DNA of 11,823 bases from positions 1 to 11,823 of the forward strand of contig JAFDCA010000649.1 of NCBI GenBank assembly GCA_019313025.1, read 5' to 3'. Below the pieces are notes generated by a model that saw only the letters and a list, made by a program, of their open reading frames with translations, searched no databases and was not told the DNA's origin. This stretch comes from Deltaproteobacteria bacterium. Its GTDB lineage: Bacteria; Desulfobacterota; Desulfobacteria; Desulfobacterales; UBA11574. A program made the position numbers and the translations under genes. Below are positions 1-7,977 of this stretch, one piece after another (position 1 is the stretch's first letter; each line of letters starts with the position of its first letter).

Positions 1-1293
1 ATCCAGTTCTCTGGGGGTGACATGGACTCTGTGATCTTCCCACTCATTGATTTTGAGAGTCATATAAGCATTGTAAATCCGTTCTCCCAGAAAATTTTTT
101 AAAAATTTACTCCTTTCGGCTTCAACCAGTGCTTCGTACATGGTTTTGGGCAAAAACCGCTTGTCCAAAACGCGACGCTTAAATTTCTTTTTATAAGTAC
201 TCGTAATATCTGGCTGGCCACAGTCCAAATCTTCTTCGATCCCTTGAATTCCCATGGCAATGAGTGTTGCGATTTGGAGATACGGGTTTCCTGCCGGGTC
301 CGGATTTCTCAACTCAATCCTGGTACTCTCAGGTTTATGGGTGTAAGGCAATCTGACCATTGAACTTCTGTTTCTAAATCCCCAGCCTCTGATAATCGGT
401 GCTTCCCTATCCAACACATATGCCTTGTATGAATTAAACGTTGATGCCATGATGATAGAGGTTTCTCTGGCATATTTCAGGATTCCCCCGATAAATTTCT
501 TACAGATTTTGCTGATATTAAATGTATCATTGGCATCGTAAAACAAATTAATTCCGTTTGGGTCCAGCATGGATATGTGCATATGAAAGGCGTTTCTGTT
601 GAAATTGTCAAATGGCTTGGGCATAAACGTTGCGTAATATCCAAACTCTCGAGCAACTTTTTGAGTGATATAATTGAAAAGAACGGTTCTGTCAGCGGCG
701 GTCAGCGGATCCGTGCATTCCAAATTAATTTCATGCTGGGATGGAGTGACCTCGTGGTGGGCTTTTTCAAACCGTATGTCACATGACTCGAGTATTGAAA
801 TGATCCTGTTTCGCACCAGTTCTCCCCTGTCGTGGGGCGTGGATTGAAAATAACCGGCTTTGTCCGAATGAACCTTTTCGCTAAATTCATCGCCGTCCAG
901 TATAAAGAATTCATGCTCCGGTCCAACGAGAAACGTAAATCCATAATTGGTTTTCGCTTTATTTAAAACGCCTTCCAGAACCGCTCGGGGATCGGCTTTT
1001 GCACGGACACCCTTGTTGTTATAGACATGGCCGATAAAAAAACCGAGTTTTTCATCGGCCAATTCTACCATACGGAAGCTTTTCGGGTCCGGTAAAATAA
1101 GTCGATCACTGCTGTCAACCGTGGCGTAACCGGCAACGGAGCTTCCATCAAAACCGATTCCGTCCAAAATAATCGATTCAATATTTCTGGGGTTGATGGG
1201 CAGGTTCATGATTCTGCCATTTAGATCCGTAAAGAAAATCTTTGTAAGATTTGTCTTTTTAAGTTTTTCTATGATGTGTTCAATACTCGCCAT
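1..1293 (-). CDS. Glutamine synthetase-family (type I-like) ligase, 3' end cut by window
   Basis: This is a GS-family ATP-dependent ammonia or amine ligase. The frame is open for 431 codons from the ATG at 1293 to the window edge, and only about ten C-terminal residues should be missing, judged by GSI length. Visible GSI motifs are DGSS (49-52), GPEHEFF (124-130), HHEV (179-182), QHEIN (186-190), FRNRSS (306-311) and RIELRNPDPAGNPYL (325-339). Aligned without gaps to Salmonella GS from memory, the metal and ammonia-site residues are kept (E126, E128, E181, E188, H237, E327, plus E297 and R329). The glutamate-contacting G265 and R321 become R233 and A291. The NLYDLPP adenylylation motif is absent. 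An AGGTGA ribosome site (1302-1307) fixes the start. It lies downstream of the aminomutase and ATP-grasp genes on the same strand. The family is certain. I doubt it is the housekeeping GlnA: the product may be an amide or gamma-glutamyl compound other than glutamine. Confidence 0.88.
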   Translation of the reverse strand, partial: MASIEHIIEKLKKTNLTKIFFTDLNGRIMNLPINPRNIESIILDGIGFDGSSVAGYATVDSSDRLILPDPKSFRMVELADEKLGFFIGHVYNNKGVRAKADPRAVLEGVLNKAKTNYGFTFLVGPEHEFFILDGDEFSEKVHSDKAGYFQSTPHDRGELVRNRIISILESCDIRFEKAHHEVTPSQHEINLECTDPLTAADRTVLFNYITQKVAREFGYYATFMPKPFDNFNRNAFHMHISMLDPNGINLFYDANDTFNISKICKKFIGGILKYARETSIIMASTFNSYKAYVLDREAPIIRGWGFRNRSSMVRLPYTHKPESTRIELRNPDPAGNPYLQIATLIAMGIQGIEEDLDCGQPDITSTYKKKFKRRVLDKRFLPKTMYEALVEAERSKFLKNFLGERIYNAYMTLKINEWEDHRVHVTPRELD

Positions 1294-1342
1294 GTTGTGT
1301 GTCACCTATTTTTGAATTTAAATGATAGACTGTACTTGAGTC

Positions 1343-1371
1343 ATTACATCTTTTTTAACTGACAATCGCAA
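1343..1371 (-). promoter_or_regulatory. Possible sigma-70-type promoter for the GS-family gene
   Basis: On the minus strand TTGCGA (1371-1366) and TGTAAT (1348-1343) are separated by exactly 17 nt, about 50 nt before the GS-family start codon. The 134-bp gap after the aminomutase gene has no clear terminator, so this gene may be both co-transcribed and separately promoted. I see no sigma-54 -24/-12 element. Short matches like this are common by chance in AT-rich DNA. Confidence 0.33.
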
Positions 1372-1427
1372 GAAAAAATTTTCGAACAACTCGAATGGTG
1401 AAATAGTAAAACAATAACCAATCGTTC

Positions 1428-2984
1428 TCACAGCTTGGCAAATGAAAACTTTTGGTTGGTGTATTCTTCGGGATCGGCGTCCGGGTATCTGACTTCTTCA
1501 CCGCTCCATGGCTTTATCATGACAATGGCGTTATCCTCATGCCCCACAACATTACTTCGGTGCAAAGGGATTTTCCCCCCTGCCGTGGCGATATATCGCG
1601 GAATGGCATCACCTGATATATTGCCGTACATACTTTCCACGATATCCCTTCCCTTTTCCACCGGAACCCTGAAGTGAGCAAACTGGGGATTTCGGTAACT
1701 GCAATTAAAAATATAATACGGCCGGACATAACTTTCCTGGATGGTTTCACACAACTTCCACATTTTTATCGTTGTATCATTGATTCCTTTCAGGAGAACG
1801 GCCTGGTTCAACACGGCACTAACGCTTTTGGAGATACGTTTAAAGGTATTTTTGGAAATCGGCGTAATTTCCTGGGCCGTATTAATCTGTGTGACCACCC
1901 TCACCGGTTTTTTGTCATTGCTTTCTTCGAGAATGTCGAGAAGTTCGGCGTCGACCCGCCAGGGGGTTGTGACCGGGATTCTCGTGCCGAGGCGTTTCAT
2001 TGTCACATGATCAATGTCATCCAGTGCCTTTAAAATGTTTTTGATCTTTTGATTGGGAAGAACAAACGCATCCCCACCGGTGATAAGGACATCCCGGATG
2101 CGTGGGTTATGGCGGATATAGTCTAAGGCTTCTTCATAGGCGTTGTCTGAATAAATCTGATCTTTTTTGCCGATGTGGGCAATCCGAAGGCAGTGGGTGC
2201 AGTACATGGCGCACATATTGGTGGCCTTAATGGTGAGGACCCTTGGATAAAACTGGTCGATCAGCCGGGCAGGGGAATGATCCGCCGCAACCGGCGGGAT
2301 CTCAACACCGACGTTATCGACCATTTCTCCGGTGGGAACCGATTGCAACAGCACCGGATCGTTCATTCGGTCGGGCTGAATCAGACTGGCGTAATAAGGG
2401 GTCAGGCGCATGCGGTAGCTCCGGGTCACCCGTCTGAGCTCTTCTATAATCTGAGATGGAAGATCGATTATTTTTGATAATTTTTCGATAGAGTCGATAC
2501 AATGTTTGAGTTGTCCCGAATAGGAATTCCATTCGTCGTCATTTATGTTTAGAATCGATTTTATACGATCAATATTTTTCTGAATACTGTCCCATAATTC
2601 AATGCCGCTTGGCGCTTCTGTATCCTTGTTTTTCAGATAATTGACAACCCTCTCATTGGCCTGTTCGACGATGGGCAGCGCCTGATTGACCCTGCCGCCG
2701 ATGGTGACGCCGTGCTCATCTACCTGTTGATGTCTTTCAGCGATCAATAAAAGGGCGTCTTTGGATATCCCGAAAGCATCAGGCGTGATCTTCAGTTCTT
2801 TTTTTATCTTCTTAAGGCGCGTGAACAAATGGACAGACGGCGCTGTCAGGCCGTTATCTTCCGCAGCTTTGACAAGACGGCCTATTTCATTGGTTAGTTT
2901 TTCAGGAAGAGATGGGACTTCTGAAACACTTTGATCAGTAGTATCAAAAAGCTCTTTTAAAAGCTCTAAAGTATAGTTATCCAT
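1428..2984 (-). CDS. KamA-family radical SAM/PLP amino acid 2,3-aminomutase-like protein
   Basis: This 518-residue protein belongs to the lysine/glutamate 2,3-aminomutase family, which uses a 4Fe-4S cluster, SAM and PLP to move an amino group between the alpha and beta carbons. The cluster motif CxxxCxxC is C258, C262 and C265. It is followed by LITGGDA (300-306), a KRLGTRIPVTTPWRV stretch (330-344), NQAVLLKGIND (393-403) and PYYIFNC (422-428). K471 in AGGK is the likely PLP lysine. About 135 extra N-terminal residues precede the core, compared with clostridial lysine aminomutase. The two aspartates that hold the lysine side chain there (D293 and D330, from memory) are replaced by S429 and by A466/T467, so lysine is an unlikely substrate. 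The start is supported by GGAGG six nt upstream. The ATG overlaps the ATP-grasp stop by 8 nt, which implies translational coupling. The substrate is unknown. Confidence 0.87.
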   Translation of the reverse strand: MDNYTLELLKELFDTTDQSVSEVPSLPEKLTNEIGRLVKAAEDNGLTAPSVHLFTRLKKIKKELKITPDAFGISKDALLLIAERHQQVDEHGVTIGGRVNQALPIVEQANERVVNYLKNKDTEAPSGIELWDSIQKNIDRIKSILNINDDEWNSYSGQLKHCIDSIEKLSKIIDLPSQIIEELRRVTRSYRMRLTPYYASLIQPDRMNDPVLLQSVPTGEMVDNVGVEIPPVAADHSPARLIDQFYPRVLTIKATNMCAMYCTHCLRIAHIGKKDQIYSDNAYEEALDYIRHNPRIRDVLITGGDAFVLPNQKIKNILKALDDIDHVTMKRLGTRIPVTTPWRVDAELLDILEESNDKKPVRVVTQINTAQEITPISKNTFKRISKSVSAVLNQAVLLKGINDTTIKMWKLCETIQESYVRPYYIFNCSYRNPQFAHFRVPVEKGRDIVESMYGNISGDAIPRYIATAGGKIPLHRSNVVGHEDNAIVMIKPWSGEEVRYPDADPEEYTNQKFSFAKL

Positions 2985-4380
2985 GAGGTTCCTCCGGACT
3001 CGGTTTTTTAGCGATGGTCAGTTCGATGGTTTTTCTTCCCTGGTTCAGCCCTTGCTGAACATCGGACCGACTATGTCCCAGGGCCACGATGCGGCCAATA
3101 AATGCACCTTCGGCCAGAATGAAATCACATCCGGTATGCTCCAAGATAAGAAAATCTTTCTTCAATTTCCCTTCCGCGACTTTCTTGAACGCTTGGCGTT
3201 CCTGGGTGCTCTGGGGAATGTAGCTTTCCGTTTGGGCCGTACCAAGAATTTTATAATTATATGTCCCCCAGTGCAAATTTTTAGTGTTTGATGTCATTTC
3301 TATGGTATTGGCCGGAAACACCCCTTCTGTGACGGCATAAAATTCAAGCTCCGGCAACATGGGAGATCCCGGTGGAAGAGACTGTTCAAGGGTACAGCAA
3401 AACTCCAGTGTGGTTCCTTGCTTTCGGGCATTGATTTCAAGGAAAAAAATCTCATCATTGTGATCCACAAGAAAATCACATCCGAATATGCCCCTGTATC
3501 CTTTTCGGGCAAGCCATCTGCCGATCATCCTGGTATAATCTTGTAGTCTTGCAATGATTTTTTTGTCCAATACCGACGGGAAGACAGAACCGGTAAACCG
3601 GGTTCCTTGTTCGATGCGCTGATCAGCCACTCCGGCAATATACACATCCGCTTCACCGGCAACAACCGCCAGCACCGTTGGATCATGCTCGTGGGGAATA
3701 AATCGGCTGATCAGATAGGGTTTGTCCGGTGCATTGAACTTGTTTTTTATGTCATCAATACCTTGGGCAATAATACTGTTCACTCCGGCGGCGCTGTATT
3801 CCTGGCATACAAAAAGTCCATCATGCCATGATTCGTAAAGTGTTTGCGCTGTTTGGATGAGGGAATCGAATCCATGGCAAATACGAAAATCTACAACAGG
3901 GAGTATATTTTTCAAATGTTGATACTGATAGATTTTACTGTTAAGCTGCTTTGCAATGTGTTTATCCGGTCCCAGAATGGATATACCCGGGGTTTCATCG
4001 AGGGTCATCTCAGGAATGCTTTCGTACATATAAATATAAATATGTTCCTGACGATTCAGAAGTCTTTTGATCAAGGAGTGAATCCGACGGTTTTTTGACA
4101 CCACTGCCGCAAACTCTTCGCCAGAAATCCTGCAGCTGACCGGAGAGCCGTATTGACATTCAAAGGTTTTTGCATGAGGATTGATGACAATCAGATTTTC
4201 ATAATCGTATTGCTCAAAAATGTCTGGTACGATGGAGATAAAATCGAATTTTCGGCTGAAAATATGAGACAGGGCTTCTTTCAGATAGGAGTTTAATCCG
4301 TAGTTCTTAAGCTCGCCGATATAAAAAAAATATTCCGTGTTTTCTTCCAATTGAAAATTGGAAAAATATATGTCAGACAT
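2977..4380 (-). CDS. ATP-grasp domain ligase of unknown substrate
   Basis: This 467-residue protein has an ATP-grasp fold, which joins a carboxylate to an amine through an acyl-phosphate. The diagnostic stretch runs from GYRGIFGCDFL (294-304) to FFLEINARKQGTT (312-324). D302, E315 and N317 are the expected magnesium/ATP ligands and R319 the expected catalytic arginine. A PYLISRFIP strand (221-229) fits the ATP-binding subdomain. Residues 1-135 look like a pre-ATP-grasp domain and 370-460 like a C-terminal lid with GHSRS (435-439), as in peptide-forming members. No signal peptide or membrane segment is seen, so it should be cytosolic. A GGAG ribosome site lies 8 nt before the ATG. It is the first gene of the minus-strand unit and overlaps the aminomutase gene, so it may ligate the aminomutase product to another amino acid. 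I do not recognise a named orthologue. Fold confidence is high; the function is inferred. Confidence 0.82.
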   Translation of the reverse strand: MSDIYFSNFQLEENTEYFFYIGELKNYGLNSYLKEALSHIFSRKFDFISIVPDIFEQYDYENLIVINPHAKTFECQYGSPVSCRISGEEFAAVVSKNRRIHSLIKRLLNRQEHIYIYMYESIPEMTLDETPGISILGPDKHIAKQLNSKIYQYQHLKNILPVVDFRICHGFDSLIQTAQTLYESWHDGLFVCQEYSAAGVNSIIAQGIDDIKNKFNAPDKPYLISRFIPHEHDPTVLAVVAGEADVYIAGVADQRIEQGTRFTGSVFPSVLDKKIIARLQDYTRMIGRWLARKGYRGIFGCDFLVDHNDEIFFLEINARKQGTTLEFCCTLEQSLPPGSPMLPELEFYAVTEGVFPANTIEMTSNTKNLHWGTYNYKILGTAQTESYIPQSTQERQAFKKVAEGKLKKDFLILEHTGCDFILAEGAFIGRIVALGHSRSDVQQGLNQGRKTIELTIAKKPSPEEPHG

Positions 4381-6008: not shown

Positions 6009-6920
6009 ATGAACTTCAAAAGGTTATATATGCAAGCCGTCTTGCCGACACTGGCTTGTTTTTTCTTAATTTATCCTGCTTCAGCAGTAAGGGGCGTCTC
6101 GGAAACAATTAAGATGTCCACAACTACCAGCACGGAAAATTCAGGGCTTTTGGATGTGTTGCTGCCGGAGTTCACCAAAGATACCGGTATTGAAGTAAAG
6201 GTGTTTTCCAAGGGAACCGGGGCCGCCATACGCGATGGCATCGACGGCAACGTCGATGTCATTTTTGTACATGCCCGAACAAAAGAAGATAAATTTATTG
6301 CCGATGGATACGGCACCCGCCGTTATGCCGTAATGCATAACGATTTTGTTGTTCTGGGTCCTCAGGATGATCCGGCCGGCATTAAGGGGATGCAAAAGGC
6401 GTCTGATGCCATGAAACAGATCGCTGCAAAAGGAGCCCTGTTCATTTCCCGGGGCGATGACAGCGGAACCCATACAAAGGAACAAGAGTTGTGGAAATCA
6501 ACCGGTTTGAATATGGAGGTTCAAAAAAGTACCGTCTTTAAGGAAGGGAAAAAAAGGACGGTCAGTTCCATATATCCCAAAGGGTCTCATAAATGGTATA
6601 TGTCCATCGGCCAGGGAATGGGCAAGACTCTCACCTTTGCCGATGAAAAAAAGGCCTACACACTTGCTGATCGCGGAACTTACATAAAATACAAGTACGG
6701 CCGTGATGAAAGCCTTGATTTGGAGATTATGTGCGAGGGTGACTCGATGCTTTTTAATCCCTACGGTGTGATTCCGGTTAATCCGGAAAAGCATCCCCAT
6801 GTCAAATACCGGCAGGCCAAGCAATTTGTAAAATGGCTGATTTCACCAAAAGGACAACGTCTTATTTCAAATTACAGACTCAATGGGAAGCAACTTTTTT
6901 ATCCGGATGCCGTAAAATAA
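6009..6920 (+). CDS. tupA: TupA-like tungstate ABC transporter substrate-binding protein
   Basis: This 303-residue exported protein should capture tungstate outside the cytoplasm and pass it to an ABC permease. The first 26 residues are a typical Sec signal: basic start, a hydrophobic stretch (10-22), and an ASA cleavage site at 24-26. It has no lipobox cysteine, so it should be free in the periplasm. TupA-type motifs follow: STTTSTENSGLL (37-48), GTGAA (69-73), SRGDDSGTHTKE (147-158), YTLADRGTY (217-225) and NPYGVIPVNP (250-259). Length is normal for the family once the signal is counted. An AGGAGA ribosome site lies 8 nt upstream. Tungstate would supply formate dehydrogenases or aldehyde oxidoreductases in an anaerobe. 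No TupB permease or TupC ATPase follows; the next gene is convergent. Related anion-binding proteins (PstS, ModA) are less likely because of the TTTS motif. Confidence 0.87.
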   Translation: MNFKRLYMQAVLPTLACFFLIYPASAVRGVSETIKMSTTTSTENSGLLDVLLPEFTKDTGIEVKVFSKGTGAAIRDGIDGNVDVIFVHARTKEDKFIADGYGTRRYAVMHNDFVVLGPQDDPAGIKGMQKASDAMKQIAAKGALFISRGDDSGTHTKEQELWKSTGLNMEVQKSTVFKEGKKRTVSSIYPKGSHKWYMSIGQGMGKTLTFADEKKAYTLADRGTYIKYKYGRDESLDLEIMCEGDSMLFNPYGVIPVNPEKHPHVKYRQAKQFVKWLISPKGQRLISNYRLNGKQLFYPDAVK

Positions 6921-6948
6921 TAATATTCGTTGGTCCGGAATCATTATT
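6919..6948. terminator. AT-rich stem-loop between convergent tupA and sir2 genes
   Basis: AATAATATTC (6919-6928) can pair with GAAT plus ATTATT (6938-6948), with one bulged C and a 9-nt loop. It spans the stop codons of both converging genes, only 23 nt apart, so it could end transcription in both directions. The stem is AT-rich and lacks a strong T run, so it is a weak candidate. Confidence 0.28.
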
Positions 6949-7801
6949 TCATAACAACCTTGAATCGTTGCAAAATCTCCGGTAAAATTTTGCCGCTGGA
7001 CTGCTTGATGAAAAAGCCTTGCTGGCTGGTTAAAGCCATGTCTGAAAATCGATTTTCTTCAATATTGATATCAATGATTGTGCTGTTGCGCTTTTTTACT
7101 TCCCATACCACCTGATTTGGGAGATTGGTGGCCCCCGAGGTTCCTACCACCAACAACAGTTCGGTCTCTCGGGCTACGCTCAAGCTGCTGTGGTACCGGT
7201 AATAATGCTCGTTATATATTTCATCAAACCAGAGAACATGGGGCCTGGTCCGGTTGCCACAAGCCGGGCACTTGAGCAATTGGCGGTCTGTTTCTGTTAA
7301 GTCGTCATTTTTTCCTCTGTGGGTTAAATCTTTAGGTATCGGAAAAATTTTTCTTATGCATTCATCGGCACAGCGCATAAAAAGAACATTCCCATGAATT
7401 TGAAATGTTTTTTCAAAGCTGTTTCCGGCTCGAAGATGCAGATTATCCACATTCTGGGTGATCAGTGTGAAACGGTTTTTAAAAAGCGTTTCCATTTCAA
7501 CCAGGGCATAGTGCCCCGGATTCGGTTGGACTTTTTTACAGACCCCGATTCTGTATAGATACCATTTCCATACCTCTTCGGGTTTCTGCATGAACATCCT
7601 ATACGTCGCCATTTCCTGCGGTTGATATTCTTTTGAACCGATGGTCCAGTATCCTTCAGGGCCCCGAAAAGTGGGGATGTTGCTTTCGGCGGAAATACCG
7701 GCACCGGTTAAAATGGTGAGTCGTCCGGATCCTTTTGCGAAATCCTGAAGAATTTTATCAAGATGTTGATCCAACATGTTTTGTCTTTGGTTCGTGCCCA
7801 T
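6944..7801 (-). CDS. Sir2-family NAD-dependent protein deacylase (sirtuin)
   Basis: Sirtuins remove acyl groups from lysines using NAD, giving nicotinamide and O-acyl-ADP-ribose. Counting 285 residues from the ATG at 7801, the NAD-binding GAGISAES begins at 33, followed by IPTFRG. TQNVDNLH (115-122) and the catalytic histidine in IHGN (H136) follow. Zinc cysteines are the CxxxC at 144/148 and the CPAC at 178/181. GTSGATNLP (220-228) is the second NAD loop. A WYLYR stretch (80-84) fits the YxxR motif of SIRT5/CobB-like class III enzymes that remove succinyl or malonyl groups. The frame extends upstream to a TTG at 7888, but that part (RLVRLRRVGQ) encodes a GC-rich hairpin and has no family similarity. 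No start has a good ribosome site, and an ATG at 7777 is also possible. The gene follows the HDOD gene on the same strand. Confidence 0.88.
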   Translation of the reverse strand: MGTNQRQNMLDQHLDKILQDFAKGSGRLTILTGAGISAESNIPTFRGPEGYWTIGSKEYQPQEMATYRMFMQKPEEVWKWYLYRIGVCKKVQPNPGHYALVEMETLFKNRFTLITQNVDNLHLRAGNSFEKTFQIHGNVLFMRCADECIRKIFPIPKDLTHRGKNDDLTETDRQLLKCPACGNRTRPHVLWFDEIYNEHYYRYHSSLSVARETELLLVVGTSGATNLPNQVVWEVKKRNSTIIDINIEENRFSDMALTSQQGFFIKQSSGKILPEILQRFKVVMK

Positions 7802-7977
7802 CCAAAAATGGTCTTTTTGCCCAACCCGCCGAAGGCGGACAAGTCTCTTCGTTATGCTCAAAAAGATCATCCATTCCGCGATATTCAAGGCTTTAGGAGA
7901 AATACTCTCCGATCCCTGAATGATAATTCGTGCTGTGATCCGTATTTTGCGGCTTTAATAAACGTGAGGATGACGCA
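7802..7977. other. Gap between HDOD and sir2 genes with two short stem-loops
   Basis: CCGCC-GAA-GGCGG (7826-7838) is a perfect 5-bp stem located about 25 nt before the likely sir2 start. GGAGA-AATAC-TCTCC (7896-7910) is a second perfect 5-bp stem, about 70 nt past the HDOD stop codon. Neither is followed by a T run on the minus strand, so neither is a clear intrinsic terminator. They may modulate sir2 expression. No small gene is evident. Confidence 0.35.

Follow-up and report, generated by a model that had tools for sequence, protein, structure and literature searches.

Carnosine is made by the ATP-grasp enzyme ATPGD1, which joins β-alanine to an amino acid, and is split again by the M20 carnosinase CN1. 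A putative functional parallel to this system is encoded in a gene cluster on contig JAFDCA010000649.1 (assembly GCA_019313025.1) of a Deltaproteobacteria bacterium of the order Desulfobacterales, analysed as a stretch of 11,823 nucleotides (the window). The cluster comprises an ATP-grasp ligase and a radical S-adenosylmethionine (SAM) aminomutase of the KamA family, KamA1 (together module A), followed by a glutamine synthetase (GS)-like ammonia ligase (module B). In related loci, an M20 hydrolase and a second aminomutase, KamA2, are found as well. Unlike in the carnosine system, the β-amino acid would be supplied within the operon itself by a radical SAM reaction; the parallel is one of function.

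The AblA/KamA enzymes and the ablAB pathway of N-epsilon-acetyl-β-lysine share with module A the radical SAM and pyridoxal phosphate (PLP) chemistry, and the β-amino acid of ablAB serves as a solute. In module A, however, both lysine-binding aspartates of lysine 2,3-aminomutase (LAM) are lost and the partner enzyme is a ligase, not an acetyltransferase. KamA1 also differs from LAM in a longer N-terminus and a one-residue insertion with an arginine. For module B, amidation of β-glutamate is a reported GS activity, the GS of Methanohalophilus portucalensis being described as making β-glutamine (PMC1224877). A LAM-like radical SAM gene and an ATP-grasp amino acid ligase gene are likewise adjacent in the Pseudomonas Pbo cluster (pboF–pboG), but there a cluster of 16 genes with other enzymes is needed for a natural product (PMC8473136). 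In the full-text literature, where subscription papers are largely outside coverage, no other publication on such a gene pair was found.

Conservation of the ATP-grasp–KamA1 Pair

The initial annotation had described three genes on the same strand, two of them overlapping by 8 nt, and ORF calling returned exactly this arrangement as three consecutive minus-strand open reading frames (ORFs; Table 1). Conservation of the three-gene order, which the annotation had put forward for checking, held mainly for the first two genes. A scan of species genomes with six short peptide patterns of the ATP-grasp ligase, which picks up close relatives only, returned 26 loci (numbered with L; genomes are numbered with G). 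Judged by record titles, they come from Desulfobacterales, Desulfobulbaceae, Desulfofustis, Desulfopila, Desulfocapsa and the like, plus one SAR324 metagenome-assembled genome. KamA1 lies downstream of the ATP-grasp gene in 22 of the 26, and the GS-like gene stands beside the pair only in L001 and, with the pair broken, in L026.

In the order to which Desulfofustis glycolicus belongs, 193 genomes were covered: the ligase was found in 19, KamA1 in 21 and both in 19 (hypergeometric p = 2.4e-24, uncorrected for kinship). All 19 co-occurring pairs share contig and strand, KamA1 being downstream with 33–727 bp between the matched ends; two of the ATP-grasp matches are partial (G475 and G517). In the two genomes with KamA1 only (G545 and G553), the match lacks the first 23–25 model positions, and that of G545 begins at base 33 of its contig. 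In a phylum-wide sample of 395 genomes, the ATP-grasp family occurs in eight, and in five of these a KamA gene is adjacent or fused to it: KamA1 adjoins the ligase in G003, G020 and G323, a glutamate-aminomutase-like KamA does so in G066, and in G143 the two enzymes form a single natural fusion protein of 922 aa.

A large protein database contains at least 15 clusters of such fusions, 915–957 aa long, in which the ATP-grasp part is 84–98% identical to that of the G143 protein; the fusions listed therefore probably go back to one fusion event. They make up 15 of the 24 long ATP-grasp proteins listed, the other nine being ATP-grasp alone; by source name, four of the fusions are glutamate and three are lysine 2,3-aminomutases. 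Distant ATP-grasp proteins, 33–35% identical (G285, G399 and G221, loci L061–L063), have no KamA1-like match at an E-value of 1e-20, so the pairing is confined to the nearer ATP-grasp subfamily. On the co-evolution of the proteins, also proposed for checking at the outset, a KamA1/ATP-grasp distance correlation of r = 0.90 over 20 loci was obtained, which has no control gene and is not used as proof. Since KamA1 follows the ligase in 22 of 26 loci and in all 19 ATP-grasp genomes of one order, it is confirmed that the arrangement is not due to chance, and genome data could hardly make the pairing firmer.

The ATP-grasp genes of L011, L013 and L025 lie near tRNA-guanine-transglycosylase-like and aminotransferase-like genes, and that of L011 also near a methylmalonyl-CoA-mutase-like gene (assigned by eye).

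Family and Substrate of KamA1

KamA1 scores 233.4 bits with the KamA family model TIGR00238 (cut-off 199.2), which agrees with the KamA-type radical SAM aminomutase proposed from the first inspection of the locus. The radical SAM cysteine triad CxxxCxxC is kept, as are Tyr113, the PLP lysine Lys337 and the carboxylate-binding Arg134 (LAM numbering). An alignment was made of the window sequence and 20 of the 22 KamA1 loci; it omits L006, which runs off its contig, and L017, where the match begins only at residue 37. In all 21 sequences, both lysine-binding aspartates of LAM are replaced by Ser429 and Thr467; the former takes the place of Asp293, the residue that binds the lysine side chain. Two invariant arginines lie near the changed positions. 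Five other KamA paralogues in KamA1-bearing genomes keep aspartate at both places.

Among the specific models, glutamate 2,3-aminomutase (Eam, TIGR04368) gives KamA1 its best score, 343.4 bits, compared with 287 for the lysine and 242 for the arginine enzyme. Closer to Eam are the adjacent KamA of L059 (632.5 bits against 455 for lysine and 403 for arginine) and the fused KamA of L060 (604.7 against 439 and 378), which come within 18 and 45 bits, respectively, of the Eam cut-off of 650. Both have Lys/Thr at the places of LAM Asp293/Asp330, with lysine at the side-chain position, and share Asn291, Thr330 and Asp189 (LAM numbering) with KamA1; Gln230 is a further shared residue, though one that occurs in KamA2 as well. 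The best model score, the residues shared with L059 and L060 and the two invariant arginines make glutamate the best guess for the substrate of KamA1, a KamA-family protein that reaches no specific curated cut-off. The structure model of KamA1 is poor (mean predicted local distance difference test, pLDDT, 57).

A lysine 2,3-aminomutase of the N-acetyl-β-lysine route was considered and rejected for KamA1, given its 287 bits with TIGR03820 (cut-off 525.4) and the replacement of both aspartates. By score, KamA1 is not an EpmB either (177.8 bits with TIGR03821, cut-off 369.3).

The ATP-grasp Ligase and the M20 Hydrolase

The first ORF, an ATP-grasp ligase in the initial annotation too, scores 29.1 bits with ATP-grasp_3 (cut-off 23.2) and has both the fold and the ExN metal motif of an ATP-grasp carboxylate-amine ligase. 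D302, E315, N317 and R319 are invariant in 23 aligned sequences, namely the window and 22 of the 26 loci, without L006 (in-frame stop) and the partial L023, L025 and L026. The structure model is confident (pLDDT 91.2). Its fold matches are tied in score within the group of PurK, PurT, biotin carboxylase, peptide ligases and PylC of the PylB/PylC pathway, and therefore no substrate specificity follows from them. The dipeptide ligase models LdmS (NF047900) and BesA (NF042917) give only 27.9 and 23.7 bits against cut-offs of 475 and 750.

The M20 hydrolase gene occurs in 14 of the 26 loci, running off the contig end in three. It is the next gene after KamA1 in 12 of the 22 KamA1 loci (the L002 and L010 copies run off the contig), follows KamA2 in L026 and in L001, where the contig ends after the first 40 residues, and follows the KamA gene in L059 and L060 as well. 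The L026 copy scores 96.7 bits with Peptidase_M20 and 57.5 bits with the dimerisation domain, which identifies it as an M20 protein. The catalytic motifs GHxDTV and DEE are invariant in the aligned copies, and the sole relative of solved structure at an E-value of 1e-20 is carboxypeptidase G2 (1cg2).

The GS-like Enzyme and Its Altered Glutamate Site

The GS-like ORF contains a GS catalytic domain (323.8 bits) and, like type I GS, keeps the fold family, the ammonia residues Asp50 and Ser53, the metal and flap glutamates, the catalytic arginine and the phosphate residues. It differs from type I GS in that two glutamate contacts are replaced, that it is a paralogue beside ordinary GlnA and that it is paired with an aminomutase. 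Lacking roughly one residue where the window ends, it reaches 352.7 bits with the GlnA model TIGR00653 (cut-off 429.15) and is not assigned to that family; nor is it a γ-glutamylputrescine synthetase (NF045547, 220.4 bits, cut-off 650).

The replaced contacts correspond to Gly246 and Arg303, which are among the predicted glutamate-binding residues of the M. thermolithotrophicus GS (PMC10799026); they were mapped by means of alignments and of their distance from His250 and Glu309. In a set of 121 sequences (the window and the best 120 of 5255 matches), the glycine is arginine in 121/121, and the arginine that contacts the glutamate carboxylate is alanine in 119 and glycine in two. Orthologues as low as 53% in identity have the same changed sites. 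Ten canonical GlnA sequences, nine from six genomes with the GS variant and one from G143 (the GlnA of G003, locus L097, is not among them), keep glycine and arginine at these sites and have an aromatic residue at position 300.

A GlnA above the family cut-off is present in six of the nine genomes with the GS variant; in G246 the second copy is incomplete (396.6 bits over positions 1–344), and G001 and G120 show none besides the variant. The initial annotation had called the GS atypical, and its sub-cut-off score bears this out. The altered glutamate site of the subfamily is as firm as the ligase–aminomutase pairing. A role of the gene in ordinary nitrogen assimilation was rejected on the two changed contacts, the score and the separate GlnA in six of nine genomes.

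KamA2 and the Joining of the Two Modules

KamA2 is 33–35% identical to KamA1. The GS-like gene occurs in only two of the 26 ATP-grasp loci, L001 and L026, and in both is followed by KamA2 and then M20. In L001 the row reads ATP-grasp–KamA1–GS–KamA2–M20; L026 has the same five-gene row, but its ATP-grasp and KamA1 genes are broken. Judging by the relatives, KamA2 and M20 may also lie downstream in the window genome, and the modules probably meet in the window row too.

Elsewhere, the GS variant is found within a few genes of KamA2 in six of seven loci. In all four GS-variant genomes of the order sample, the contig with the variant also carries KamA2, at a distance of 59 bp to 3.8 kb and once on the opposite strand (G448). 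KamA2 itself is present in 13 of the 395 phylum genomes, is 70–85% conserved and occurs without the GS variant in seven of the 13. It has Glu/Ala at the positions of LAM Asp293/Asp330 and fits no model, the arginine, lysine and glutamate enzymes scoring nearly equally (362, 349 and 344 bits).

In the order sample, the GS-like gene is present in 3 of 19 module A genomes versus 1 of 174 others (p = 0.003), and KamA2 is associated with module A at p = 0.03, both uncorrected for relatedness. In the phylum sample, the ATP-grasp and GS-like genes overlap in one genome (p = 0.13). GntR/FCD regulators that are 50–55% identical head both module A (L020 and L021) and module B (L056 and L057), with no control for regulator frequency.

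Several further features accompany these loci. In L026 (10001–10462), the N-terminus of the ATP-grasp ligase is joined to the C-terminus of KamA1 in a single in-frame remnant of 153 aa, which may be a real deletion or an assembly effect; GS, KamA2 and M20 are intact. A 602-aa KamA-like protein (L058, 1223–3031), with 306 bits for general KamA and no specific aminomutase cut-off reached, is encoded between the GS variant and KamA2. Another KamA-like protein (L088, 8186–9364), with methionine at both substrate positions, follows KamA2 and precedes a sulfotransferase-like gene (by eye). In L054 (7275–12798), the genes after KamA2 and the GS variant, all in the same orientation, encode a sulfotransferase (PF13469) and a radical SAM protein whose B12-binding-like part scores 30.5 bits, below the cut-off of 32.1. 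A family-3 amino-acid binding protein precedes the neighbour gene of KamA2 in L053 (10418–12329), and a similar binding protein with apparent permease and ATPase genes (by eye) lies directly before KamA2 in L087 (4614–8189). These uptake-like genes hint that the substrate or product of KamA2 is taken up by the cell.

Proposed Pathway and Alternative Explanations

The best explanation, to which we assign a probability of roughly 0.55, is that two β-amino-acid modules are joined in one cluster and that module A follows a carnosine-like logic. KamA1 would move the amino group of an acidic α-amino acid from C2 to C3, most likely converting glutamate to β-glutamate. The ATP-grasp ligase would activate a carboxylate with ATP and couple the β-amino acid with an amine or a further amino acid, and the M20 hydrolase would cleave the product again for recycling. 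In module B, KamA2 would make a second β-amino acid, the carboxylate of which the GS-like enzyme would amidate with ammonia and ATP, β-glutamine being the simplest candidate. The succession of aminomutation, ATP-grasp coupling and GS amidation was already sketched in the initial annotation and is supported in part. It has gained the conserved enzyme pair and the altered GS site, and it is the substrates, products and direction that stay at the level of proposal. By analogy, the product may be a compatible solute, or a nitrogen store, barred from protein synthesis: β-glutamine is described as a known solute in methanogens (PMC1224877), and in other bacteria eam, for β-glutamate, stands under Na+ riboswitches and is listed among osmoprotectant genes (PMC9337991).

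A number of observations weigh against this explanation. The ATP-grasp gene has no KamA1 beside it in L011, L013 and L025, the last of these being the second ATP-grasp gene of the L006 genome; the genome of L013 (G581) has no KamA1-like match at all, and that of L011 (G580) holds only a 62-aa C-terminal piece of KamA1 and a LAM-like paralogue. The Eam score of KamA1 is far under the cut-off, and its Ser/Thr pair differs from the Lys and Asn of the characterised enzyme of C. difficile at these positions. M20 is absent after KamA1 in L007, L014, L015, L017, L019, L023 and L024, and a search that had no positive control did not find it in six genomes of the Desulfofustis/L007 kind, so the breakdown step looks optional. 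Only L001 and, within its reach, the window are known to have GS in an unbroken row with module A. For KamA2, a cationic or amide substrate appears just as possible, since it fits no model and has Glu/Ala at the two positions. As regards a solute role, no riboswitch was detected at gathering thresholds in the window and 10 loci.

The same architecture with another KamA1 substrate (2-aminoadipate, glutamine, aspartate or ornithine) would also be compatible with the logic of the modules. The lack of any specific cut-off reached, Ser429/Thr467 being unlike both the lysine and the glutamate enzymes, and the Glu/Ala of KamA2 speak for it, but Eam is the best specific model for KamA1 and for its fused and adjacent relatives, and an acidic side chain is favoured by the two added invariant arginines close to the pocket; it is a possibility to be taken seriously, though at clearly less than even odds. 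A natural-product or signal pathway, in which the two module A enzymes would yield a small bioactive or signalling β-peptide instead of a solute, is unlikely; its model would be pboF and pboG, which are consecutive in the Pbo cluster table (PMC8473136). Such a pathway would suit the GntR-family regulator at the head of the module in L020 and L021, the patchy distribution (ATP-grasp in 8/395 phylum genomes) and the ABC-exporter-like gene set (by eye) that L012 has on the opposite strand, some 1 kb beyond the unit. Yet the neighbour clusters shared by the loci show no recurring peptide synthetase or exporter (neighbours not annotated singly), and a row that includes a hydrolase suits a cytoplasmic pool with both synthesis and breakdown.

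The carboxypeptidase-G2-type M20 points to a small acyl-amino acid rather than to a β-amino acid attached to a protein, as EpmB and EpmA do on EF-P. The KamA family includes EpmB, and some ATP-grasp enzymes modify proteins, but with 178 bits against the 369 of the EpmB model such a modification is highly improbable here. We give equally little credence to a degradation route opened by KamA1 and KamA2 with the ligases as chance neighbours. In its favour, LAM is catabolic in clostridia; amino-acid uptake genes lie near KamA2 in L053 and L087, and the KamA1-less ATP-grasp genes of L011 and L013 are near an aminotransferase and a methylmalonyl-CoA-mutase-like gene (by eye). Against such a route stand the fusion and the strict co-occurrence with an ATP-consuming ligase, and the surroundings of the KamA1 loci show no recurring catabolic gene cluster (neighbours not annotated singly).

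Layout of the Window and Neighbouring Genes

The features are collected in Table 1. The overlap of the ATP-grasp and KamA1 genes and the GGAGG before the KamA1 start, a good ribosome-binding site at a spacing of 6 nt, make translational coupling of the two likely. In the gap between KamA1 and the GS-like ORF, a terminator-like site was looked for and none was found, and the RNA fold is no stronger than in shuffled sequences (z = 0.80). For the GS-like protein, a start at ATG 1293 is more likely than at GTG 1305, as the GTG sits inside an AGGTGA motif that also precedes the ATG in L001 and L026. Upstream of the cluster, the window encodes a PBP-like binding protein (6009–6920), which recurs near the cluster in L026, and a Sir2-family protein (6944–7888), which recurs in L003 and L026.

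Table 1. Coordinates of the cluster features (positions in the window unless a locus is named).
Feature	Position	Strand	Remarks
ATP-grasp carboxylate-amine ligase (module A)	2977–4380	minus	467 aa
KamA1, radical SAM/PLP aminomutase (module A)	1428–2984	minus	518 aa
GS-like ammonia ligase (module B)	1–1305	minus	435 aa; 3′ end and stop beyond window edge; likely start ATG 1293
Gene overlap and GGAGG before KamA1 start	2977–2995	minus	8-nt overlap 2977–2984; GGAGG 2991–2995
Gap between KamA1 and GS-like ORF	1306–1427	minus	122 nt, no terminator-like site
GS-like Arg237	595–597	minus	replaces glutamate-contact Gly (Gly246, M. thermolithotrophicus GS); motif spacing
GS-like Ala295	421–423	minus	replaces glutamate-binding Arg (Arg303, M. 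thermolithotrophicus GS); motif spacing
GS-like Arg300	406–408	minus	Arg in 90/121, Lys in 23/121
KamA1 Ser429	1698–1700	minus	place of LAM Asp293; Arg431 (1692–1694) nearby invariant in 21 sequences
KamA1 Thr467	1584–1586	minus	place of LAM Asp330; Arg463 (1596–1598) nearby invariant in 21 sequences
GntR/FCD regulators upstream of modules	L020:9248–9901, L021:9182–9847, L056:11303–12004, L057:11437–12138		

Biological Meaning

Strict co-occurrence and natural fusion tie a KamA-type aminomutase and an ATP-grasp ligase together as one conserved unit, and cultured carriers can be named in Desulfopila aestuarii and Desulfofustis glycolicus. In addition, a GS subfamily is defined that, by its changed glutamate site, is predicted to act on a different acid. 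Tentatively, sulfate reducers may make a new class of β-glutamyl (or aminoacyl-β-glutamate) dipeptides by means of an aminomutase and an ATP-grasp ligase, fused in one clade, and may possess a dedicated β-amino-acid amide synthetase that is derived from GS and has two replaced glutamate contacts. β-Glutamate has reportedly been found in anoxic marine sediments, and if the dipeptide reading is true, these bacteria would be a source of it. In methanogens, a glutamate aminomutase route to β-glutamate is reported to have been excluded by nuclear magnetic resonance (PMC1224877), so the proposed pathway would be another route. If β-glutamate is indeed the substrate, bacteria would form β-glutamate compounds by the very route reported as excluded in methanogens.

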